Below, one piece after another: positions 50,184-63,352 of a stretch of 64,000 nt of DNA (positions within the stretch are counted from its first letter, which is position 1; each line of letters begins with the position of its first letter). Made by a program: the position numbers and the translations under genes. The DNA comes from Pirellulales bacterium. Lineage in GTDB: Bacteria; Planctomycetota; Planctomycetia; Pirellulales; Lacipirellulaceae. The notes under the pieces are model-generated. The model saw only the letters and a list, made by a program, of their open reading frames with translations, did not search any database and was not told the origin of the DNA. The stretch covers positions 62,001-126,000 of the forward strand of contig JAHBXQ010000009.1 in NCBI GenBank assembly GCA_019636345.1, read 5' to 3'.

Positions 50184-51989
50184 TTACCTGCCGAGCTCAA
50201 TATCATAACGTTTGGACAAGTATTGAAACACCTTGTTGCAATCAGCTTGATCGAGCGCCGCGTCGTAGACAAGAATTTCGTAGATATTTCCCAGGTAGTA
50301 GGCTTCGTACCAGGGCTGAGCGTGGCTGCCGACGTACTTCTTGGCATGCTGCTCAAGCGGTCGAGGAGCCGAGGTCACCCCCTGGCTGACGCCGTTGACG
50401 AGCAACTCGGCCCGGTTGCCGACGGCGTCGTACTGGTACGCCACGGCGCACGGGGCCAGCGGAGCGATCGGAGCGCCTTCGACGATGCCGACGTTCGTCG
50501 GATTCTTGTTCTTGACGGCTTCGCCCGCCCAGACCAATCCCCGCGGCCTGTGATCGGTCAGCATGGTCAACTCGAGCGTCGGCGCGTCGAGTCCGTACTT
50601 CAGCAGGATTCCGCCGTGCTGGGCGCTGGCGAAGCTGGCCGGGCTCGATGAGCAGACGACGAACGCCGTCTGCTGGTTGGTCGTTTCCATGGGACTGGTC
50701 GCCAGGTAATTCGACCAGCCGTCGAATCGCACCGCGGGCCGGCCTTCGCCGTCGCGAACCCAAATGGGGCAGAGCCGCTCGTCGAACTGCCACGCATCGT
50801 CGGGAAATCGGTTGTCGCCGATCAGTATGTCGGGCCACGTCGCGACGGGCTCCCCTTCTTTTTCGATCGGAATCAAATCTGCGGCAAGCCACAGCGCGAG
50901 ATTGCTTGTAATCGGCAGCGACGGCAGCTTGTCGGCGGGGATGTCGGGCACGAGCCGGCGCACGAACTTGGCGCCGTCGAAGCGAATGCGACGCGGCTCC
51001 GCTTCAGCGCCGTTGATCGCGACCGCCTCGTCTTGCTTGGCATGAACCAGGGCGCCGACGCCATGCTCGCCGGCTGCGCGGGTGACGACATCGCCGTCGA
51101 AGACGTGGACTTCCGAGTCTCCCGCACTGTCGACCTCCACGCCGAACTCGGTGCCGAGATCAACGACTTCGGCCGTCGGCGTGAGAATCGTGTATCCGCG
51201 GGCAAACCGCGGGACGGCCGCGGCGACCTTGCCGGCTGCGAGTTTGGCTTCGATCCCGGTCGTCATGACCAGATCGACCGGGCCCTCGACGACGACTTTG
51301 GCGCCCGTGTCGTAGGTCAGTTGCAGCACGCCTTGGGTCAGCTGCAGGCGATCGCCCGGCTGCAGCGTGTCGCCGAATTTGAATTCGGCGGCGCCTTCCG
51401 ACCACATGCAGTCGTCGAGTCCCGTGACGCGGGCGACCGGGGGCGTCGTGGGGGACGGCGCGCGGTTTTTTCCGGACCGTCCGCCTCTCGACTTCTCCGC
51501 GTCTTCCAGCGCGGCGAGTTCATAGAGATCGTCGAATCGGGAAAGCAAAGAGTTGTATTGCCACGCGAACGCGGCGAACAGCACGAGCGCCGCAACCGCG
51601 ACGGCCAACCCGTGGGCGTTCACAAACTCGGCGACCCGCAACGCCTTGCCGCGGATCGCGCCTGTCGTCGACCGGCTCGACTCGTCGGGAACGGCGCTTC
51701 GTTGAAAATAGTCGACAATGGGAGGAAGCTCGTCCGCGGCGGCCTCGGCGTCTGTCGATTTCGAGGCTTTCCCCGCCTGCTGAAGAAAAGAGAGCGCCGT
51801 CTCAAGCGTTCCAATTTCCTCGCGCAAGATCGAGTCGTCTTGCAGAAACCGCGAGGCCGAACGACGAGCCGCCTCGTCGGCGAGCAGCAGTTCGTTGAGC
51901 TGCGCGAGTTGCTGGTCCGTGGCGTCGCCGTCCAAGGCGACCAGCAACAGTCGGCGGAGTTCCGATTCGTTTCGATCGATAGCGCTCAT
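50184..51989 (-). CDS. FecR-domain membrane protein with LamG-like C-terminus
   Basis: The product is 601 residues. Residues 1-110 form a helical cytosolic part (LRRLLLVALDGDATDQQLAQ) resembling the anti-sigma end of planctomycete FecR proteins. One membrane helix lies near 128-146 (GLAVAVAALVLFAAFAW). The FecR domain follows (ARGYTILTPTAEVVDLGTEF, near 260), and from 365 a concanavalin/LamG-like domain (LALWLAADLIPIEKEGEP, VRFDGWSNYLATSP). FecR proteins transmit envelope signals to ECF sigma factors. The sigma factor gene lies 50 bases upstream on the same strand, so a functional pair is very likely. LamG fusion suggests the sensed ligand is a carbohydrate (inference). Confidence 0.9.
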   Translation of the reverse strand: MSAIDRNESELRRLLLVALDGDATDQQLAQLNELLLADEAARRSASRFLQDDSILREEIGTLETALSFLQQAGKASKSTDAEAAADELPPIVDYFQRSAVPDESSRSTTGAIRGKALRVAEFVNAHGLAVAVAALVLFAAFAWQYNSLLSRFDDLYELAALEDAEKSRGGRSGKNRAPSPTTPPVARVTGLDDCMWSEGAAEFKFGDTLQPGDRLQLTQGVLQLTYDTGAKVVVEGPVDLVMTTGIEAKLAAGKVAAAVPRFARGYTILTPTAEVVDLGTEFGVEVDSAGDSEVHVFDGDVVTRAAGEHGVGALVHAKQDEAVAINGAEAEPRRIRFDGAKFVRRLVPDIPADKLPSLPITSNLALWLAADLIPIEKEGEPVATWPDILIGDNRFPDDAWQFDERLCPIWVRDGEGRPAVRFDGWSNYLATSPMETTNQQTAFVVCSSSPASFASAQHGGILLKYGLDAPTLELTMLTDHRPRGLVWAGEAVKNKNPTNVGIVEGAPIAPLAPCAVAYQYDAVGNRAELLVNGVSQGVTSAPRPLEQHAKKYVGSHAQPWYEAYYLGNIYEILVYDAALDQADCNKVFQYLSKRYDIELGR

Positions 51990-52039
51990 GATTCAAGACT
52001 TGCCGAGCCGCCCCCGGGGAGTCTTTCTCCGTCCGCACT

Positions 52040-52576
52040 TCAAGTTTGCTTCAATCGCGATTCCACGCAGGTCTCGAGCGCCTTGCGAATTCGCAGAAAG
52101 AGACTCTTCACCGCATCGGCGCTGCGCTGGCTCGAGACGGCGATCGCTCGAATGGACTGCTCCTCGCCGTAACGCATCCACAGCAATTCACGATTCTGCC
52201 GCGGCAGTTTGTCGAGGCAGATCCTCAAGGCGTGGCGGCGTTCGTCGGTTTCGCTCGAGTCCCCCTCGGCGACGTCGAGCATCAGGCTCACGACTTCGTT
52301 GGAGAACACGTGCCGATCCCGTTTGCTGTCGCGCAAAAAGGAGAGGATTTCGTATCGCGCGATTGTCAAGGCCCAGGGCAGGAAGGCCGCCCCGGCGTGA
52401 AATTCACGGGCTTTTTTCCACAAGGCCAGATTGGTTCGTTGGAGGACGTCGGCCGTGTCGGCGTAGTTTCCCAGCGAGGCCAGGATAAAGGCCCTCAACC
52501 GGCCTTGCGAAGCCGTGAGATCCTGGACGTAAACGTCGAGGCTCCCAGACTGCTGTTCCTCTCGGTGTTCTTCCAT
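52040..52576 (-). CDS. ECF-type RNA polymerase sigma factor
   Basis: The product is 178 residues from the ATG at 52576; an ATG ten codons upstream is possible. Region 2 is visible in RAFILASLGNYADTADVLQR and FLPWALTIARYEILSFLRD, and region 4 in CLDKLPRQNRELLWMRYGEE and SIRAIAVSSQRSADAVKSLF. This matches the Rhodopirellula/Verrucomicrobium-type sigma-70 family usually paired with FecR/LamG proteins. It heads the minus-strand operon sigma, FecR, DUF1559, and is divergent from the triple PEP-CTERM gene, which may be one of its targets (inference). Confidence 0.92.
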   Translation of the reverse strand: MEEHREEQQSGSLDVYVQDLTASQGRLRAFILASLGNYADTADVLQRTNLALWKKAREFHAGAAFLPWALTIARYEILSFLRDSKRDRHVFSNEVVSLMLDVAEGDSSETDERRHALRICLDKLPRQNRELLWMRYGEEQSIRAIAVSSQRSADAVKSLFLRIRKALETCVESRLKQT

Positions 52577-53027
52577 GGCGTTGCGATCCGATTGAGGCGG
52601 GCGCAAATCTCACGCAGGAGAGCGCCCAACTAACATAGGAGGAGTCGCTTGGTTGAGGCGTCCTCCACTCTTCTCCACGTACCGCCGTTCGGTGTCGCGA
52701 ATTTCGCACATTTTTCGGAACGGGGGAGGTCGGGGCCATCCCCCGGGCGATTTTACGGAGTCGTCCGTCATTTTTGTCATTTTATTCCGCACGCACCGTC
52801 ACCAATTGCCTTATTCCCGGAGATTACTGGCAACGCTGGTGCTCGCCGGCGGCTTGTCATCTCTCATCGCAGCACTCGTTCGCGCGGCAGGTTTCGCTCG
52901 AACACGATTTCGCACACCGATTTTGGCACGGGTCACGCGCCGGTCGAGCCCCGACGCGGCGAATTGCGACGACCGACGAGCATCGGCGAAGCAGCTTGAC
53001 ACCGCCTGTCGTTATGGAGAAGCATCA
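52577..53027. other. 451-bp divergent control region of the surface cluster
   Basis: This lies between the ECF sigma gene and the triple PEP-CTERM gene. It contains a tandem direct repeat GTCATTTTT/GTCATTTTA at 52767-52784, in an AT-rich patch. The frame of the plus-strand gene stays open back to 52653, but the residues before 53028 lack signal or family features. The repeat may be a regulatory site. Confidence 0.5.
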
Positions 53028-56000
53028 ATGAAATCGAGGATCACTCTGGCCTCGTTCCTGGCCGTCGCCGCGGCGATCGCCTGCTTGGGACTTTCGCAGG
53101 CCCGCGCCGCGTTCGACGTGTTTTGGCTTCCGGCGGGCTCCGGCAACTGGAACACCGGCGCCAATTGGGCGGATCTCGAGGGTGGGGCCCCGCGCGGCGA
53201 CATCCCCAGCGCGTTCTTCGAGGAAATTGCCGTCATCAACAACGGCGGCACGGCGACGCTCTCGGCCGCGGCCGGTGACACGACCGGCGGCATCGTTCTG
53301 GGGCGAACGGCGACCGATTCCGGGACGCTGACAATTAGTTCCGGGGGATCGCTGGTCAGCGAAGCGAGCGCCAGTTCGAACGGCAGCGTTCTCGTCGGGC
53401 AATCCGGTCTAGGAACGCTCAATGTCAGCGGGACCGGTTCGCTGACGGCGCCGAGTCTTGGCGTCGGCGGGCTCGCGGGGAGCCAAGCCAACTTCAGCGG
53501 CAGCGCCAACGTGACGGTCACGGGAACGACGACGATCGGTCGGGGATTGAAACTCACCGGCCCGAACGTGACGTTCAGTTCGGCGACGGGCGTCACGTTC
53601 CAAAGCACGAGCGTGTTGACGGCTGAAATCACAAGCCCCGGCGGGCATTCGGCCGTCAAGACGGCCGGGACGCTGTCTCTCGGCGGCACGCTCAACGTTC
53701 AATTCAACGGGGTGACGCCGACGCTTGGCAGTGCATGGGATCTCGCCGACGCGACGGCGATCGCCGGCAACTTTTCGAACGCGTCGGTCGGCGGCTCGGT
53801 CGCGGTCGCCGGCGCACCTGCCGCGGCGCTCGGTTCGGCGTACCGCCTGCGGACCGTCGACGGCGGCATGAACGGCAAGCTGCTGCAGGTCGCGCTGGAA
53901 GGGATGCTCGTGCTCCGCGTCAACCGCGACACCGGGGAAATGACGATCCGCAACCCTTTGGGAACGTCCGTTCCGGCGCTGGCCGGGTATGAAATCGCCT
54001 CGCCGCACGGTTCGCTGCTGACCAGCTACAAGGGGATCTCCGGGGCGCCGGCCGGCGATTCCGGCTGGACGAAGGCCGTCATGAACTCTTCAACCGGTCT
54101 TGCGGAGTTCAAGCCCTCGGGCAGCCTCAACGTCTCCTCAAGCGGAACGAACCTGTCGCTGGGAGCGGGGTTCAGCAAGACCGCCGTAGCCGGCCAACCG
54201 TTGGGGGTCACCGGCGAGGACCTGACTTTCTCCTATCACACGCTCGGCGGCGAGGCCGTCACAGGGCAGATCGAGTACGTCGGCACGCCGTTCCTCAACA
54301 ACATCGCCTTGATCGTCAACACGACGACCGGACAGGCCACGCTGAAGAACGACACGCTGCAGTCGATCGCGATCGACGGCTATTCGATCGTGTCTTCCAC
54401 CGGCGCGTTGAGCGGAGCGTCGTGGACCGGCCTGGGGGCGAGCTTCGCGAACTGGGAAAAATCGCCGGCCGATCCGGGCGCCTTGTCCGAGACCAATCGG
54501 GTGGCGCCGACCGCCTTGGCGGCCGGCCAATCGGCGAGCTTGGGAGTGATCGGCAATTTCTCGACGCAGGCCGCTCAGGAAGGCTTGGCGATGAAGTTCA
54601 TCATCGGCGATGAATTCGATTTCCGATTCGCCTCCGTCTCCTTCACCTCGGGAGCGGGAATCGCGGGCGACTTTAACGGCAGCGGCAAAGTCGATGGCGC
54701 CGATTTCCTGGCGTGGCAGCGCAACACCAGCGTCGGCAGCCTCGCCGATTGGAAGGCGAATTACGGGGCCGGGTCGGCCGTCGCCGCGGTCGCCGGCGCC
54801 GCCTCTGCCGTGCCCGAGCCGAAGTCAATTCTGCTGGCGACTCTCGCGGCGGCGACCTGCGCCGGTCGGCGACGTCGTCGTCATCCCCGATCGATCACTT
54901 TACAGGAGAGCAGCGCAATGATTCGCACGACGGCAATTGCGTTGGTCGCCGCGGCGTCGTTGGCGGCGATTCGCGTCGATGCGGCGGTCACCCTGTCGTT
55001 CGATCCGTCGCAACCGACGCTCGGCACGTACGACCAGTCGCAGTTGCTGGACGACGCCGAGATCCCCGGCGGGACGACGCCGGGAGGCGGCACGTACAAC
55101 TCGCAGGCGTTCACGGACAACGTCGGGCCGTTGGGGCAGACGTTCACAACGCCGGGAGACAAGCATCTGTACGCCCTCACGGGCGTCTCAGTGAAGGGCG
55201 TAGGCGACGCGGGAGGCGGCGCCCTGGACGCGGACGCCACCTGGGCCTTGCGGATCAGCAAGGTGAACGGCACGACGCTCGCCCCCCTGAAGACGTTCAC
55301 CGGCGTTGCGGTCCCGCAAGGCGCGGCGGGAACAGAGTGGTTCACCTTCTCGATCTCGGGTTTCGACGTGCCGGCGCTCGCGGCGAACACTCAGTACGCA
55401 TTCGAAATCTACTCGACTGCCGGGTGGTTCGGGGTCGACGCGACACAGGGAGACGCGGCCTACGCGGGAGGAACGGCGTTCAACAGCCTCGGGCCAGGGC
55501 GCTCGTTCACCGACAACACGCTGGGGAATCTCGCGAACCACGGATACGACCGAACGTTCATCGCGCAACTGGCGGCACCTCCGGGCGGTCCTGGCGACGC
55601 CGACAACAACGGATCGGTCGGCGTGAGCGACTACAACCTGATTAAGGCCAATCTCGAAAAATCGGTTTCGATGTTCACTAACGGCGATTTGGACGGCAAC
55701 AGCTTCGTCGATCTCAACGATTTCCGACGATGGCGACTTGCCGCGTCGCCTGCGGTGCTGGCGGCGGCGGGAATTCCGGAGCCGTCGGCAGTCCTGCTCG
55801 CAGGGACGACGTTTCTTGGCTTCGTCGCCCTGAGGCGGCGAGTCCGCCGCTTACCGACGGCGCTGGTCGCATTGACTATGCTCGCCATCGCCGCGTCCTC
55901 TGCAACGGCGACCGTCACGATGACCATGGGCACGACCGCGCCGACGCCGGGTCTCTACGACCAGTTCGACTTCATCGACGACGCGTCAATCCCGGGCGGG

Positions 56001-56819
56001 ACCACCCCCGGGGGAGGCACGTACAATTCGCAGGCGTTCTCGGACAACAACGGCCCCCCGGGGCAGATCTTCACGACCCCTGCGTCGGCGTCGCCGTCGT
56101 TGCCCTCGTTCACGCTCGACGCCGTGTGGCTCAAGGGCGCCAACACGGGAGGGAACGTCGGCGGCATCACGGCCGCGACGACATGGGCGATTCGCATCAG
56201 CGAGGTCAACGGAACGGATCTCACCCCCGTGAAAACCGTCACGGGGATTCCGAGCCTCGTCGGCATGCTCGGCACGGAATGGTTCACTTGGACTTTCGCG
56301 GGCTCCGATCTGCAACTTTTGCAACCGAACAAGCAGTACGCGTTCGATCTCTACTCGTCGACCGGCTGGCTTGGATTCGACGCGGACACGTCCGATTCGT
56401 ACGCCGGCGGAACCGCGTTCAACAGCGGCGACGGGGCGGCGCGATCGTTCGCCGGGCTGACGACCGGCGACCTCGCGAGCCACGGCTATGACCGTACGTT
56501 TCTCGTCGCGTTGACCCCCGCGTTGTCGATCGTCGCGGGCGACGTCGACGGCGACGGCGACGTCGATCTCGACGACTTCAACCTCATCAAGACGAACTAC
56601 TTCCTCGCCAGCGGGGCGACGCGGTCCCTGGGCGATCTGAACGGCGACGGAAAGATCAACCTCGCCGATTACGCGATTTGGCGCAACAACGCCCCGCCAG
56701 CCGTGTTGGCGCAGGTCGGGATCCCCGAGCCCGCGAGCTTGGCGCTGGCGGTCGCCTGCGCCGGCGGGCTGCTCGCCTCTCGCCGGCGTTTGCGGCTTCG
56801 CGGAGTACGGCCAGCATAA
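53028..56819 (+). CDS. three-module PEP-CTERM protein (tandem sorting signals)
   Basis: One uninterrupted frame of 1263 residues encodes three exported modules in series. Module 1 (1-630) has a signal peptide (ITLASFLAVAAAIACLGLS), a GNWNTGANWAD beta-helix-like body, a dockerin EF-hand (GDFNGSGKVDGADFLAWQR, about 547) and the sorting signal at VPEPKS (595). Module 2 (631-935) restarts with its own signal sequence (MIRTTAIALVAAASLAAIRV), a beta-sandwich, two EF-hands and IPEPSA (916). Module 3 (about 936-1263) has a hydrophobic leader (LPTALVALTMLAIAASSATA), a paralogous sandwich, EF-hands and IPEPAS (1232). Modules 2 and 3 are paralogues. An SD and ATG at 54918 suggest that module 2 was once, or still is, started independently. 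Confidence 0.8.
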   Translation: MKSRITLASFLAVAAAIACLGLSQARAAFDVFWLPAGSGNWNTGANWADLEGGAPRGDIPSAFFEEIAVINNGGTATLSAAAGDTTGGIVLGRTATDSGTLTISSGGSLVSEASASSNGSVLVGQSGLGTLNVSGTGSLTAPSLGVGGLAGSQANFSGSANVTVTGTTTIGRGLKLTGPNVTFSSATGVTFQSTSVLTAEITSPGGHSAVKTAGTLSLGGTLNVQFNGVTPTLGSAWDLADATAIAGNFSNASVGGSVAVAGAPAAALGSAYRLRTVDGGMNGKLLQVALEGMLVLRVNRDTGEMTIRNPLGTSVPALAGYEIASPHGSLLTSYKGISGAPAGDSGWTKAVMNSSTGLAEFKPSGSLNVSSSGTNLSLGAGFSKTAVAGQPLGVTGEDLTFSYHTLGGEAVTGQIEYVGTPFLNNIALIVNTTTGQATLKNDTLQSIAIDGYSIVSSTGALSGASWTGLGASFANWEKSPADPGALSETNRVAPTALAAGQSASLGVIGNFSTQAAQEGLAMKFIIGDEFDFRFASVSFTSGAGIAGDFNGSGKVDGADFLAWQRNTSVGSLADWKANYGAGSAVAAVAGAASAVPEPKSILLATLAAATCAGRRRRRHPRSITLQESSAMIRTTAIALVAAASLAAIRVDAAVTLSFDPSQPTLGTYDQSQLLDDAEIPGGTTPGGGTYNSQAFTDNVGPLGQTFTTPGDKHLYALTGVSVKGVGDAGGGALDADATWALRISKVNGTTLAPLKTFTGVAVPQGAAGTEWFTFSISGFDVPALAANTQYAFEIYSTAGWFGVDATQGDAAYAGGTAFNSLGPGRSFTDNTLGNLANHGYDRTFIAQLAAPPGGPGDADNNGSVGVSDYNLIKANLEKSVSMFTNGDLDGNSFVDLNDFRRWRLAASPAVLAAAGIPEPSAVLLAGTTFLGFVALRRRVRRLPTALVALTMLAIAASSATATVTMTMGTTAPTPGLYDQFDFIDDASIPGGTTPGGGTYNSQAFSDNNGPPGQIFTTPASASPSLPSFTLDAVWLKGANTGGNVGGITAATTWAIRISEVNGTDLTPVKTVTGIPSLVGMLGTEWFTWTFAGSDLQLLQPNKQYAFDLYSSTGWLGFDADTSDSYAGGTAFNSGDGAARSFAGLTTGDLASHGYDRTFLVALTPALSIVAGDVDGDGDVDLDDFNLIKTNYFLASGATRSLGDLNGDGKINLADYAIWRNNAPPAVLAQVGIPEPASLALAVACAGGLLASRRRLRLRGVRPA
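54902..54920 (+). promoter_or_regulatory. internal ribosome-binding site and in-frame ATG
   Basis: AGGAG at 54904-54908 and an ATG at 54918 sit exactly where module 2 of the triple protein begins, nine bases apart. The sequence looks like a normal gene start, but no stop codon separates it from module 1. It could allow separate translation of modules 2 and 3. Confidence 0.65.
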
Positions 56820-56868: not shown

Positions 56869-57921
56869 ATGCAACGGCGAGCGTCGGGATTTACGTTGGT
56901 CGAGCTATTGGTCGTGATCGCCATCATCGGCGTGCTCGTGGCGTTGCTGTTGCCTGCAATCCAAGCGGCGCGGGAAGCGGCTCGCCGGACCCAATGCCAG
57001 AACAACCTCAAGCAGATGGCGCTGGGGTGCCTGAACCATCATGACACGCATAAGCACTTTCCCACCGGAGGGTGGGGATGGTTTTGGGCGGGCGATCCGG
57101 ACCGCGGCTTCGGCAAGGATCAGCCGGGGGGATGGGTCTACAACATGCTTCCCTACCTCGAACAAGGCGCCTTGCACGCGCAGGGGAAGGACGGACAACC
57201 CGACGTGCTGACGCGCGATCAACGCGAGGGGAGCCGTCGCACGTTGGAATCGCCCCTAGATGCGATCACGTGTCCCTCGCGACGCCCGGGGGGACAGACC
57301 TTTCCTTACAAAAACTCCGTGGGCATCTACAACGCGCTGAAGCCGGAGAACTGCGGTCGCAGCGATTACGCAATCAACGCGGGATCGGTTTGGGTCGAGA
57401 CGCAAAACGACAACCAATTTCCCCAGACGTATGCAGCCGTCGCCGGTTTTGACAATCGATGGATGGAAGCGGCTCTCCAGGCCTCCGGGCGCGACGCAGG
57501 CGCGGAACTCAACGGCATTTCGTACCAGCGCAGCCAGATCGGGATAAGACAAGTCTCGGACGGAACGTCCAACACCTATCTGGTCGGCGAGAAGGCGCTC
57601 ACGCTGACCAACTACGACACGGGCGACGATCCCGGCGACAACGAAACTTGGTGCACCGGATTTAACAACGACAACTACCGCAAGACCGCTGCCGGCTCAA
57701 ATTATCTGGCGCCCTTGGCCCTGACTCCGATTCAGGATGCGCCGGAATACCCGGCCGCCGCGAACGGCGAGGGGAGTCGCGGGTTCGGCTCTTCGCACTC
57801 AGGGGGAGTCAACATGGCGTACTGCGACGGCAGCATTCACCTGATCAGTTTCGACGTCGACTGGATCGTCCATAAGAACTTCGGCGATCGAGCCGACGGC
57901 AACGTCGTCAGCTCGCGCTAA
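56869..57921 (+). CDS. DUF1559 domain protein with pilin-like N-terminus
   Basis: The product is 350 residues. The SD GGAGAGG lies just before the ATG. The pilin-like signal starts at residue 7 (SGFTLVELLVVIAIIGVLVA), followed by AIQAAREAARRTQCQNNLKQ. The body has HFPTGGWGWFWAGDPDRGFG, ITCPSRRPGGQT, ISYQRSQIGIRQVSDGTSNT and NETWCTGFNNDNYR. The C-terminus has FGSSHSGGVNMAYCDGSIHL. It is a close paralogue of 48944-50044 across the divergent cluster. It lies 49 bases after the triple PEP-CTERM gene, hence probably in one operon with it. Confidence 0.93.
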   Translation: MQRRASGFTLVELLVVIAIIGVLVALLLPAIQAAREAARRTQCQNNLKQMALGCLNHHDTHKHFPTGGWGWFWAGDPDRGFGKDQPGGWVYNMLPYLEQGALHAQGKDGQPDVLTRDQREGSRRTLESPLDAITCPSRRPGGQTFPYKNSVGIYNALKPENCGRSDYAINAGSVWVETQNDNQFPQTYAAVAGFDNRWMEAALQASGRDAGAELNGISYQRSQIGIRQVSDGTSNTYLVGEKALTLTNYDTGDDPGDNETWCTGFNNDNYRKTAAGSNYLAPLALTPIQDAPEYPAAANGEGSRGFGSSHSGGVNMAYCDGSIHLISFDVDWIVHKNFGDRADGNVVSSR

Positions 57922-58140: not shown

Positions 58141-58872
58141 ATGAGGTTGCATCAATTCGGAGTCCTTGCGGTTATGCTGGCGGCGCTGGCGTGTCCTCGC
58201 CTGGCGACCGCCGCAGTCACGATGTCGTCCGACGCCGCCGATCCGGCCCTCGGACCGGACGATCAGTACAGCTTGGTCGACGATCAGCAAATCCCCAACG
58301 GAAATACCCCTGGCGGCGGTACGTACAACTCGCAATCGTACTCGGACAACGCCGGTCCTCCTGGACAGACCTTCACGACGCCCGCCGGCGCCCCGTCGTA
58401 CCTGCTCACGTCCGTTTCGATGAAAGGCACCGGCGACACGGGCGGCGGCGCCGTCGAAGGCCAGTGGGGCGTCCGGATCAGCGCCGTAAGCGGCACGAGC
58501 TTGACGCCGCTCAATACAGTGACCGGAATCGTCGGCGCCGCGAGCGCGACGGCCGACGACTGGCTCACCTGGGCCTTTAGCGACGCCGACGTCCTGTCGC
58601 TGAGCCCCGGCACGCAGTATGCGTTTGAGGTCTTCTCCAGCAGCGGGTGGTTCGGCTTCGGCGGAGCGCCGGACTCGGCCTACGGGGGCGGGACCGCGTT
58701 CAACAGCGCCGGCCCTTCGCGAAGCTTCGGCGACGATACGCTGGGCAACCTCGCGAACCATGGTTACGATCGAACTTTCCATGTCGCCCTCACTGCCGTC
58801 CCCGAACCGGCGGCGATCGGCTTGGCCCTCGGCAGCGCAGTCGGCCTGCTGGCATGGAGGCGGAAACGCTAG
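58141..58872 (+). CDS. PEP-CTERM protein, stand-alone paralogue of modules 2 and 3
   Basis: The product is 243 residues. GGGAGG precedes the ATG by eight bases. After the signal peptide (LAVMLAALACPRLATA) comes the same beta-sandwich as in modules 2 and 3 of the 53028 gene: PGGGTYNSQSYSDNAGPPGQ, WGVRISAVSGTSLTPL, GGGTAFNSAGPSRSF and NLANHGYDRTF. It lacks the EF-hand pair and goes directly to VPEPAAIGLALGSAVGLLAW with a RRKR end. I know no function for this sandwich; a carbohydrate- or protein-binding surface role is plausible. Confidence 0.9.
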   Translation: MRLHQFGVLAVMLAALACPRLATAAVTMSSDAADPALGPDDQYSLVDDQQIPNGNTPGGGTYNSQSYSDNAGPPGQTFTTPAGAPSYLLTSVSMKGTGDTGGGAVEGQWGVRISAVSGTSLTPLNTVTGIVGAASATADDWLTWAFSDADVLSLSPGTQYAFEVFSSSGWFGFGGAPDSAYGGGTAFNSAGPSRSFGDDTLGNLANHGYDRTFHVALTAVPEPAAIGLALGSAVGLLAWRRKR

Positions 58873-59206: not shown

Positions 59207-62200
59207 ATGCAAAGTCATTCTCTCTCTACGCCACGGCATTCCCGCCCCAGGCGGCTGCGGGGCTTCGAGTCGTTGGAAACGAGAAGCCTGCTGGCCGTCG
59301 TGATCAACGAGATTCACTACGATCCGGATCTGGGGACGGAGCAGGTCGAGTTCCTCGAGTTCTACAACTCGGGCGCGACGGCCGTCGATCTCTCGGGCTG
59401 GCGAATCGCCGCTGCGGTCGACTACACGTTCCCTGCGGGATCGTCGATCGCACCCGACGAGTATCTGGCGGTGACTCAGAACGCCGCCCATTTCCAGGCC
59501 AAGTTCGGGTTCGCGCCGTTTGGCCAGTGGGAGACGGGACGCAAGCTCTCCAACGAAGGCGAAACAATCGAACTGCGCAATGCCGTGAACGCGGTCGTCG
59601 ACACCGTGACGTACAAGCTGGGGTTTCCCTGGCCGACCTCCGGCGACTACGGCAGTTCGATCGAGTTGATCAATCCGGCGCTCGACAACGATCTGGCCGG
59701 CAGTTGGCGGTCGTCGGGTCTTGCGTCGACGCCGAACGCGGGGGCGACGCTCGTCGTTCCGGGAACCAATTGGCGGTATCGCAAAGGGATCACGGCCAAT
59801 CCGCCGACCGTGGCGAACGATCCGGCGAACAACTGGCGATTGACTGGCTTCGTCGAGGCGAACGACTCCACGGCGTGGCAAACCGGCGCGGCGTCGATCG
59901 GCTACGGCGATGGCGACGACGCCACGATTCTGTCGGACATGCGGAACAACTACTGGTCGTTCTACGCCCGGAAGACGTTCACGATCAGCGGCCCCGTCCC
60001 CGATAGGCTGACCCTGCGGATGTACGTCGACGACGGGGCGATCGTCTGGATCAACGGCGTGGAAGTGCAACGGTTTCACGTCTCGCCGGGGGACAAGAAC
60101 TACAACAGCGCATCGGGTTTCGGCAATGAAGCGGCGTGGGAGGAAGTCACTCTCACGGGCGCAAGCCAATATCTCGTGTCGGGGACGAACACGATCGCCG
60201 TGCACGTGCTGAACGAGACGCTGGGGAGCAGCGACGCATCGTTCAATCTGGCCCTGAGCGTACCCGACGACACGGTCGGCCAGCCGACCCCCGGCGCCAG
60301 GAATTCCGTGTACGCCGAGAACGCGGCGCCCCAGATGCGCCAATTGAACCAGTCCGTGTTGCAGCCGACGAGCGGGCAGGACGTGATCGTCACGATCAAG
60401 GCGACCGACCCCGACGGCGTGCAGAGCGTGACGCTCGAGTACCAACTGGTCGACCCCGGGTCTTACATTCGACTGACGGACGCGGCGTATCAGACGGAAT
60501 GGACGACGCTGGTGATGCGCGACGACGGTCTCGAAGGGGACGCCGTGGCGGGCGACAGCGTCTACACCGTCGTCATGCCGGGGATGCTTCAGGTTCATCG
60601 CCGGTTGGTTCGCTATCGGATCACGGCGACCGACGTGCTGGGGGCCTCCGTCCGCGGACCGTACGCCGACGACGCCCAGCCGAACTTCGCCTACTTCGTT
60701 TACGACGGGGTTCCCGACTACACGGCGTCGCTCCGCCCCGGCGTCCTGCCGAACGAGACCTACAGCGGCGATTCGCTCTCTGCGATTGCGACGTACCACT
60801 TGATCGCCAACGCGACGGACGTCCAGAACAGCCAATACAACGGCTCCTACAACGAAGTCGAGTTCCCCGGCACGCTCGTTTACGACGGCGTCGTCTACGA
60901 TCACATCGCGTTTCGCAATCGCGGGGTCGCCTCGACGTACGCGGTCGGCAAGAACAAGTGGAAGCTGGAGTTCAACCGCGGCCATTACTTGCAGGCCTAC
61001 GACAACTACGGCGTTCCGTATAAGGAATTGTGGGACGAGATCAACGTCCTGCCGGGCACGAACCCCTGGTGGCGGAACGACGTCTCGACCGAAGGAACGG
61101 TGCTGTTCGAGCCCGTGGCGTTCAAGTTGTACGAGCTGGCCGGCGCCCCCTCGCCGAAGACGACCTATTTCAATTTCTTCGTGATCGACGCCGCGTCCGA
61201 GGCGGGGGCGAATCAGTACTCGGGCGACTTCTGGGGGCTGTACATCGGCATCGAGCAGCCGGACGGCAGTTTCCTGAACGAACGCGGGCTTCCCGACGGC
61301 AACATCTTCAACATGCACGGGTCGGTGTTCGGCTCAACGACTCAGCGGCATCAGGGGTCGGAGCTTCCGACCAATCGGTCCGATCTCGCCGCATTTCTGG
61401 CGGGGATCAACAGCACCTCGTCGCTGGCGTGGTGGGAGGAGAATCTCAACTGGGACTCCTACTTCGCCTGGAACCTGATCAACCATGTCGTCAACAACTC
61501 CGACATCCGTCCTAACGAGAACGTCAACTACTATCACAATCAGGTCGACGGCAAGTGGTACGTCATCCCTTGGGATCTCGACCTGACGTTCGAGGACGCG
61601 CCGCACCATAGCCAGCCGGTGACGACCCGCGAGAACATTCGCGTGCTGCTTAACACTTATCCGGCCGCTCGCCTTGCGTATGAGAATCGGCTTCGCGAGA
61701 TCACCGACTTGCTCCTCGCCAATGGCGACGCCGCGAAGGTCGTGGAGGAAATTGCCGGCGTGTTGACGCTCCACTCGGGAGATCTGACGATCGTCAACGC
61801 CAACCAGGCGCAGTGGGACTACCACCCGCAGAAAATCAAGAAGGGAATCTGGTACAAGAACTTCAATCCGGCGCTGTTGACCAACGAGTCGTTCGCCGGG
61901 CTCGTGTCGTACATGCAGGATTTCGTCAGCCCCGGCGGGTACGGTTACAATCTGATGTCCTCCCAGGGGAGCGACGCCAATATCCCCGCGACGCCGACGA
62001 TTTCGTACGTCGGCGCCGGGACGCACCCGGCCGACGGGCTCGTGTTTCAATCGTCCGCGTTCAGCGATCCGCAAGGCTCAGGCACGTTCGCGGCCATGCA
62101 GTGGCGGGTGGCCAAGGTCGACAACGCGGACACGGCGGGACATGTCGTCGGCACTCCCTACGCCTACGAGATCGAAGGGACTTGGGAATCAGGCACGCTC

Positions 62201-63352
62201 ACGACGTTCGCCAATCAGATGGCCGTCCCCGCAGGGGTCGTGCAGACTGGCGTCACGTATCGCGCCCGGGTGCGGATGCAGGACGCCGACGGCCACTGGA
62301 GCCATTGGTCGAACGCAATCGAGTTCGTGGCCGGCGCAAACGAGTCTGCGCCGGCGCTGGCAATCACCGAGCTGCATTACAACCCCGCCCCCAATCCCCT
62401 GGTCGTCGACGCGCAAGATCTTGAGTTCGTCGAGGTGATGAATTACGGAACGACCACGATCGATCTCGAAGGGGTGCGGCTCGCTGCGTTTGCCTCGAAC
62501 CCCTACGTGTTCGGCCCCGGGCTGAGTCTCGCTCCGGGACAGAGGATCGTCGTGCCGAAGAATCCGACCGCGTTTCAGGCGTACTACGGCACGAGCGTGT
62601 TCATCGCCGGCGGGGGGTACGGGTCGGCCAATCTCAGCAACGGCGGCGAAACGATCGAACTGGTTGCCGCCAACGGCGCACTGATCCAAAGCGTCACCTA
62701 CGACGACGCTGCGCCGTGGCCGACGGCCCCCGACGGGAACGGGCCGTCGCTTGAGATCATCGACCCGCAGGGCAATCCCGACTCGCCGAGCAATTGGCGC
62801 GCGAGCGCGGCGCTCGGCGGTTCGCCGGGCTGGGACGGACTGCCGGGGCAACCGGGCGACTACAACCGCGACCACGCCGTCGACGGGAGCGATTTTCTCG
62901 CTTGGCAGCGCACGCTAGGAAGCCGCTCGCCGGCCCTGTTCGGCGCCGACGGAAGCGGCGACTCCGTGGTCGACGCGATCGATCTCGCCGTGTGGCAGGA
63001 CAACTATGGAGCATCGGCGCCTCTAGCGACCGCCGCGGCGCTTGACCTTGATGGTTGGATCCTTGCCGACGAGCTGGATCAAGCCAGCGCGATCGGGGCG
63101 GTTTTGTCCGGAGATCCCGCTGAATTGCCGCCCGCCGGGCAGGAGTTGACCTGGCGCAGCGCTGAGTATCGCCGCGACGTCGATGCGGCGCTGTCCGCAT
63201 GGCACGAGGATGAGCTGCGGCCGCGAAGAAGCCGGCTTGCGGAGCGAATCCGCTCGACTCCTCCAGCCTTGGACTTCGACACCGTCGGCGCCGACAAGCT
63301 TAGAGCGGGCCTGGCGTCGCCCTTCGCTCGCATCAGCGTACGACCAAGCTGA
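59207..63352 (+). CDS. large CotH-kinase / lamin-tail / dockerin surface protein
   Basis: The product is 1381 residues. A basic N-terminus leads the LEPRxLL-type motif GFESLETRSLLA (residues 19-30), a planctomycete N-terminal export/processing mark. Lamin-tail domain 1 (INEIHYDPDLGTEQVEFLEF) spans about 31-160. A beta-sandwich (LRMYVDDGAIVWINGVEVQR) lies near 270. A CotH kinase-like domain occupies about 520-910 with GLYIGIEQPDGSFLNER and VIPWDLDLTFEDAPH, the latter carrying the metal-binding Asp pair. Lamin-tail domain 2 begins near 1055 (ITELHYNPAPNPLVVDAQDL). A dockerin EF-hand (GDYNRDHAVDGSDFLAWQR) lies near 1217, and a polar tail without PEP-CTERM ends the protein. It may phosphorylate or modify extracellular proteins. 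Confidence 0.9.
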   Translation: MQSHSLSTPRHSRPRRLRGFESLETRSLLAVVINEIHYDPDLGTEQVEFLEFYNSGATAVDLSGWRIAAAVDYTFPAGSSIAPDEYLAVTQNAAHFQAKFGFAPFGQWETGRKLSNEGETIELRNAVNAVVDTVTYKLGFPWPTSGDYGSSIELINPALDNDLAGSWRSSGLASTPNAGATLVVPGTNWRYRKGITANPPTVANDPANNWRLTGFVEANDSTAWQTGAASIGYGDGDDATILSDMRNNYWSFYARKTFTISGPVPDRLTLRMYVDDGAIVWINGVEVQRFHVSPGDKNYNSASGFGNEAAWEEVTLTGASQYLVSGTNTIAVHVLNETLGSSDASFNLALSVPDDTVGQPTPGARNSVYAENAAPQMRQLNQSVLQPTSGQDVIVTIKATDPDGVQSVTLEYQLVDPGSYIRLTDAAYQTEWTTLVMRDDGLEGDAVAGDSVYTVVMPGMLQVHRRLVRYRITATDVLGASVRGPYADDAQPNFAYFVYDGVPDYTASLRPGVLPNETYSGDSLSAIATYHLIANATDVQNSQYNGSYNEVEFPGTLVYDGVVYDHIAFRNRGVASTYAVGKNKWKLEFNRGHYLQAYDNYGVPYKELWDEINVLPGTNPWWRNDVSTEGTVLFEPVAFKLYELAGAPSPKTTYFNFFVIDAASEAGANQYSGDFWGLYIGIEQPDGSFLNERGLPDGNIFNMHGSVFGSTTQRHQGSELPTNRSDLAAFLAGINSTSSLAWWEENLNWDSYFAWNLINHVVNNSDIRPNENVNYYHNQVDGKWYVIPWDLDLTFEDAPHHSQPVTTRENIRVLLNTYPAARLAYENRLREITDLLLANGDAAKVVEEIAGVLTLHSGDLTIVNANQAQWDYHPQKIKKGIWYKNFNPALLTNESFAGLVSYMQDFVSPGGYGYNLMSSQGSDANIPATPTISYVGAGTHPADGLVFQSSAFSDPQGSGTFAAMQWRVAKVDNADTAGHVVGTPYAYEIEGTWESGTLTTFANQMAVPAGVVQTGVTYRARVRMQDADGHWSHWSNAIEFVAGANESAPALAITELHYNPAPNPLVVDAQDLEFVEVMNYGTTTIDLEGVRLAAFASNPYVFGPGLSLAPGQRIVVPKNPTAFQAYYGTSVFIAGGGYGSANLSNGGETIELVAANGALIQSVTYDDAAPWPTAPDGNGPSLEIIDPQGNPDSPSNWRASAALGGSPGWDGLPGQPGDYNRDHAVDGSDFLAWQRTLGSRSPALFGADGSGDSVVDAIDLAVWQDNYGASAPLATAAALDLDGWILADELDQASAIGAVLSGDPAELPPAGQELTWRSAEYRRDVDAALSAWHEDELRPRRSRLAERIRSTPPALDFDTVGADKLRAGLASPFARISVRPS

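Follow-up and report, generated by a model that had tools for sequence, protein, structure and literature searches.

Within the window, a 64,000-nucleotide stretch of a Pirellulales bacterium genome (GenBank assembly GCA_019636345.1, contig JAHBXQ010000009.1, positions 62,001 to 126,000), translation and Pfam searches revealed a single stop-free reading frame of 1263 amino acids (53028-56819, plus strand) that holds three PEP-CTERM signals in series, each closing a putative exported module (Table 1). A preliminary description had reported three complete signals in this frame at residues 595, 916 and 1232, and this was borne out: no stop interrupts the 1263 residues, hmmscan matched three stretches of the protein to PF07589 (E 1.1e-7 for the whole protein), and the signals begin at V595, I916 and I1232. 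TIGR02595 scored 15.9, just under its cut-off of 16, and the PEP motif, hydrophobic helix and basic cluster of a PEP-CTERM signal were all found in the protein. The frame likely starts at 53028 and is open upstream of this point as far as a TTG at 52653. An N-terminal signal peptide was recognized by eye in module 1, and the two internal leaders were found by a rule that combines a hydrophobic leader with an AxA motif; this rule and the one for signals were our own, with no published predictor involved. When the residues of such frames were shuffled 1200 times, our signal rule found not one signal in any shuffle.

Table 1. Features of the serial PEP-CTERM frame and its downstream neighbours, in window coordinates.
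Feature	Position	Strand	Basis or remark
Whole frame, 1263 amino acids, three putative exported modules in series	53028..56819	+	translation, Pfam
Signal peptide 1 (MKSRITLASF...QARA)	53028..53108	+	cleavage site by eye
PEP-CTERM signal 1 (VPEPKS...RRRRR)	54810..54881	+	Pfam
Junction 1 linker HPRSITLQESSA	54882..54917	+	TTA at 54900, AGGAG at 54904-54908
Signal peptide 2, own ATG (MIRTTAIALV...VDA)	54918..54983	+	
Dockerin-like repeats, module 2	55593..55736	+	below Pfam cut-off
PEP-CTERM signal 2 (IPEPSA...ALRRR)	55773..55841	+	Pfam
Junction 2 and signal peptide 3 (VRRLPTALVALTMLAIAASSATA)	55842..55910	+	shared arginine cluster; TTA at 55851
Dockerin type I, module 3	56538..56684	+	Pfam, over cut-off
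PEP-CTERM signal 3, terminal	56721..56801	+	Pfam; stop TAA at 56817
Neighbour, DUF1559 protein with N-methylation motif	56869..57921	+	same place in G034
Neighbour, separate single-module gene of the module 2/3 family, one PEP-CTERM match	58141..58872	+	

Signals 1, 2 and 3 are followed by 645, 324 and 8 residues, and only signal 3 lies at the extreme C-terminus. The preliminary description had taken one C-terminal signal as the norm. Among other PEP-CTERM matches of this genome (the best 40 of 84 listed at E<=0.001), the stop follows within 21 amino acids at most (median 2; under 10 in 37 of the 40). With 150 of 193 candidates scored, PF07589 gave 84 matches in the genome at E<=0.001 and 144 at E<=1; among the 144 matches listed, read by eye, the window frame alone holds two, and its third signal, absent among them, was recovered by hmmscan of the protein. 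EF-hands had been described in each module. They are secure in module 3, where the paired calcium-binding repeats of a dockerin type I domain give the protein's one Dockerin_1 match over the Pfam cut-off (residues 1170-1217), whereas those of module 2 fall below the cut-off and those of module 1 were seen by eye only. Module 3 is 50% alike to module 2. The predicted structure of module 2 had a mean predicted local distance difference test (pLDDT) score of 58.9 and 0 Foldseek matches at E<=0.001, and among solved structures the match was to the dockerin part only. The genome also encodes exosortase, with two PF09721 matches over the cut-off.

Closer inspection of the two junctions, which rest on one assembly, showed that they differ in form. 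At junction 2, the ALRRR that ends signal 2 runs directly into VRRLPTALVALTM, such that the two sides share one arginine (Arg) cluster; Shine-Dalgarno-like bases are lacking, no methionine (Met) precedes the hydrophobic core, and the first TTG and ATG lie inside it. At junction 1, the RRRRR tail is followed by a 12-residue linker and then by module 2's own AGGAG and ATG. The earlier proposal that the Arg-rich end doubles as the basic n-region of the next leader therefore holds for junction 2 and not for junction 1. Junction 1 resembles an ordinary gene boundary minus its stop, with a linker that appears to have been a 5' leader before it became part of the frame. Each junction contains a single TTA codon, and six local coding stretches, 3241 codons together, hold no other; across the window's genes, as called by a crude gene finder, TTA occurs 12 times in 17672 codons, with two of the occurrences lying in an upstream extension that is itself doubtful. 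This pattern, noticed after the fact, hints that the junction stretches became coding recently. The presence of TTA inside other window genes called by the same gene finder led us to reject it as a stop codon.

The locus itself could be compared with one fully syntenic relative, the single-contig genome G034, in which the whole neighbourhood is kept in order: a sigma factor and a FecR-like gene on the other strand, genes 1 to 3, the DUF1559 gene and gene 4. Genes 1 to 3 are separate there, each with its own stop about 100 bases ahead of the next start. Gene 1 is 65% alike to module 1, gene 2 is 65% alike to module 2 and gene 4 scores 56%; gene 3 reaches 34% over its whole length, and by eye its dockerin and signal end are near those of module 3 while its body is not. 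Module 3 has the appearance of a chimera, with its body copied from module 2 and its end taken from gene 3. Given the separate, individually terminated genes of G034, the separate state is likely the older one at this locus and the window chain probably arose by fusion. A fusion of three genes through lost stops, which the preliminary description had set against a polyprotein, thus fits the locus but is no alternative to the polyprotein: fusion is likely the origin and polyprotein the likely result. The module 2 body was found in 7 of 396 genomes of the order; among the 43 family genomes it occurs in three, namely the window's own (three matches), G034 (two matches) and G036 (a short remnant). 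Neither it nor the window frame was found in G001, the one other genome available from the genus, which is 72% complete in 570 contigs. NCBIfam held no family for two of the G034 genes, and a search for relatives among genome contigs, viral contigs and plasmids returned nothing of use. In G036, a short piece like the body of genes 2 and 4 (L038, near 5682) lies beside a gene like the downstream one of G034.

Away from this locus, serial chains recur. At least five other frames in G034 were recognized by shared frame length and place among its PF07589 matches (150 of 326 candidates scored; frames not selected for signal peptides). They hold 3, 3, 2, 2 and 2 signals; all seven of their junctions have the form of junction 2, and 7 of 7 run into a leader. 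Because G034 showed five other chains, we rejected the reading of the window frame as a one-off artefact. A profile built on eight such junctions (A3) had matches at E<=0.001 in every one of the 43 family genomes, many of the matches being ordinary ends, and gave full-length stop-free matches in frames of about 620-1660 amino acids in at least 21 of the 43. We examined 40 A3-matched regions, a set that leaves out at least five stop-free matches (G030 C336, G027 C238, G006 C69, G007 C2 and G038 C290). Together with the window, the syntenic G034 locus and the five other G034 loci these make 47 sources, 41 of which contained a frame with at least two signals by a rule of PEP, helix and basic tail (41 frames, 18 of 43 family genomes; four signals in L146). 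The six sources that held no chain were the syntenic G034 locus, with its separate genes, and five unvalidated profile matches.

A second profile, built on 32 junctions (A4), was run more widely with 17 candidates scored per genome. At E<=1e-9 it gave matches in 23 of the 396 order genomes, 17 of them in the window's family and six in others, one of the six (G133) stopping early; no match was found in the other 373. In a sample of the phylum it matched 7 of 392 genomes at 1e-8 and none of the remaining 385; the window's genome, G554 and G472 matched near full length, and the four other matches cover just the first 27-34 of 53 positions. Chain counts are lower bounds, given the candidates scored in these wide runs and the A3 matches as listed. 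From other families we obtained 19 frames in 18 of 20 regions (genomes G068, G086, G055, G071, G091 and G472), including a whole frame with ten signals in 2531 amino acids in G068 (L194, contig 91) and one with seven signals in 2427 amino acids in G086 (L204), many of whose module pairs are about 50-87% alike. The one other genome available from G068's family gave no match. Seven profile matches were not validated: L130, L142, L143, L150 and L212 have two PEP motifs in one frame, one of which fails the rule; L127 lies at a contig end with one PEP, and L203 has one true signal.

With the window included, these searches amount to 60 validated frames with 169 signals, up to ten per frame, and 115 internal junctions in 24 genomes, and 17 of the 60 frames lie in single-contig genomes. 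Although the window's fused frame, for which the preliminary description had proposed a search of related genomes, was not found elsewhere (no match in G001, separate genes in G034), its class of junction was. The shared layout is a PEP motif, a membrane helix, an Arg cluster that is also the n-region of the next signal peptide, and the next module, with no stop; by its sequence, junction 2 has the form of this class. Exosortase was present in all ten chain-bearing genomes examined of the 24.

A hydrophobic leader with AxA was found at 114 of 115 junctions, compared with 24 of 242 control windows under the same lenient rule. The signal at residue 1968 of L194 is the sole junction lacking a leader by the rule; its linker is long and charged. 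An ATG with a Shine-Dalgarno motif occurs at 3 of the 115 junctions (junction 1 of the window, one junction of L132 and one of L147), compared with 1 of 204 random internal windows and, by the same crude rule, 25 of 53 module 1 starts in frames with a closed 5' end. Internal signals, which were partly selected by profile, scored a median of 28.8 bits versus 21.8 for terminal ones on a model from own-genome tails, and do not appear degenerate. Modules resemble each other within 27 of the 60 frames, as they do in the window, and duplication therefore probably adds modules.

Related chains share the same module order within a genus (L084/L118, 78/70/79%; L083/L119, 82/87/86%) and across genera (L125/L145, 67/66%; L129/L137, 48/53%; more weakly L140/L156, 45/33%), and the downstream modules remain in frame in the pairs compared. 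Across six pairs and nine junction comparisons, with one chain used twice, the ratio of nonsynonymous to synonymous substitution rates (dN/dS) of linker plus leader was 0.15-0.45 in seven comparisons and not computable in two, with whole-frame values of 0.11-0.23; as dS is 1.05-2.43, the junction values, taken over 31-35 codons, are rough, which tempers the case for constraint. Both partners carried PEP in all nine comparisons, a count partly selected by the profile search. For the class, the open frame, this codon constraint and the scarcity of Shine-Dalgarno starts speak for one continuous chain, whereas the start at junction 1 of the window and the ATG found at 47 of 115 junctions speak against it.

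These comparisons make it probable that the window frame encodes an exported polyprotein cut by exosortase and signal peptidase. The polyprotein proposed in the preliminary description gains from the recurrence of the stopless junction across frames and genomes and its retention between related chains; its processing into three products we infer. The whole chain would be made in one ribosome run that reads through the junctions, and each module would cross the inner membrane by its own signal peptide. A signal peptide needs its basic end inside. The PEP-CTERM helix would return the chain, the Arg cluster would stay inside and the next signal peptide would lead out again; as an Arg cluster inside suits the helix and the next signal peptide alike, the chain could thread out, in and out. 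For PEP-CTERM, the cited part of Haft et al. (PMC1569441) applies the positive-inside rule in this way, with the Arg cluster inside and PEP at the outer face. Each junction would form a helical hairpin between two outside cut sites, for exosortase at PEP and for signal peptidase at AxA, and the two cuts would release the surface proteins singly, with the hairpin lost. Such junctions might arise by a deletion joining the Arg codons of a gene tail to those of the next signal peptide, an event that would account at once for the missing stop, gap and Met. Because both junction ends would be cut off anyway, these deletions would cost little and tandem genes could fuse repeatedly. More generally, we lean towards the view that in relatives (probably planctomycetes) tandem genes have repeatedly been joined in frame to give exported polyproteins of two to ten modules, from which exosortase and signal peptidase, acting together at Arg-hinged hairpins, release some of the surface proteins. 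In the window, junction 2 belongs to this class, and junction 1 is joined more loosely and has retained a start for modules 2 and 3.

Several observations weigh against this interpretation. The window's frame turned up in no other genome, the sole fully syntenic relative has three separate genes at the locus, and junction 1 carries its own Shine-Dalgarno and ATG; it may be young, leaky or an error. An in-frame ATG lies within 22 codons at 47 of 115 junctions compared with 40 of 204 controls, some of these perhaps old starts, and any start codon with a Shine-Dalgarno motif occurs at 4 of 115 junctions and 4 of 204 controls. Internal initiation is possible, because only 25 of 53 presumed true starts pass our Shine-Dalgarno rule. 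The counts of leaders, AxA and PEP are partly selected, since most frames were found with junction-built profiles. In addition, the cited part of Haft et al. 2006 (PMC1569441) regards the small number of PEP-CTERM proteins that have long tails as possibly non-functional.

An uncut chain, in which the junction hairpins serve as membrane anchors of a multi-pass "beads on a string" membrane protein, seems unlikely to us. A hairpin whose two helices are joined by an Arg turn could plausibly be stable; however, an anchor alone needs neither PEP, kept at 9 of 9 comparisons, nor AxA, found at 114 of 115 junctions, so both motifs, partly selected as they are, weigh against it, and the internal, profile-selected signals score no worse than terminal ones (28.8 versus 21.8 bits). 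More doubtful still is an accidental, functionless fusion at this locus, with stops lost recently and the downstream modules either translated from starts of their own or not produced: it would agree with the separate genes of G034, with the AGGAG and ATG retained at junction 1 and, as noticed after the fact, with the sole two TTA codons in 3241 falling at the junctions, but junction 2 lacks a Shine-Dalgarno-like start and fits a class that related chains have retained. That one or both stops are masked by an error of sequencing or assembly is very improbable: the frame is known from one genome and junction 1 comes near to a normal gene boundary, but the neighbour genes common to G034 are open and of similar length, and 17 frames in single-contig genomes show the same form of junction.

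If it is a polyprotein, the chain would resemble, as a single product with internal leaders, viral polyproteins that contain internal signal peptides, which to our knowledge involve no sorting protease; we claim no homology. In the cited part of Haft et al. 2006 (PMC1569441), PEP-CTERM proteins have one signal, virtually always C-terminal, with fewer than 10 residues after it in 87%. The window chain is like these exosortase substrates in its PEP motif, helix, Arg cluster, signal peptide and exosortase in the genome, and unlike them in that such chains carry a run of 2 to 10 signals, of which only the last is terminal. For a single internal sorting signal, the literature searches brought up two precedents only. 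HVO_0405 of Haloferax volcanii, as described in the cited part of PMC7157517, is a two-gene fusion whose central site is cut by archaeosortase ArtA; the cut has been shown there, whereas the protein is archaeal and a strain-specific domain fusion with one internal site and no module series. The internal MYXO-CTERM tag of MXAN_5598 is likewise thought to stem from gene fusion, with processing proposed (PMC11980579, in the part cited), but there a single tag is associated with myxosortase and the second half is an outer-membrane barrel. Serial PEP-CTERM chains, PEP-CTERM polyproteins, "bacterial polyprotein" and tandem or internal PEP-CTERM (the last two among the papers listed) were not found in the literature searched, which mostly excludes subscription papers, and the "multiple" and "two PEP-CTERM" wording in the cited parts of PMC1569441 and PMC12188702 concerns other matters. 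PEP-CTERM has been treated as a C-terminal tag, whose terminal cut removes a small piece only. If the polyprotein reading is right, each cut would shift size by tens of kilodaltons, as it did for archaeosortase with HVO_0405, and exosortase activity and cut sites would thus become directly testable. It would also mean that several surface proteins are supplied at a fixed ratio from one start, that tandem genes have a cheap route to fusion, and that gene annotation counts several mature proteins as one.

Among the neighbouring genes, the PEP-CTERM match of the separate single-module gene scored 18.4 bits in hmmscan (Pfam cut-off 20.7) and 22.8 in the genome search. A DUF1559 gene with an N-methylation motif lies near chains at 24 of 58 chain loci, a count that stands without a background rate. 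The window contains no tRNAs. A sigma-70-like factor and a FecR/laminin-G-like gene adjoin the chain upstream (50184-52606, minus strand) and occupy the same place in G034. Downstream, 59207-63352 encodes a 1381-residue protein with lamin tail domains, a CotH kinase domain and a dockerin match below the cut-off.

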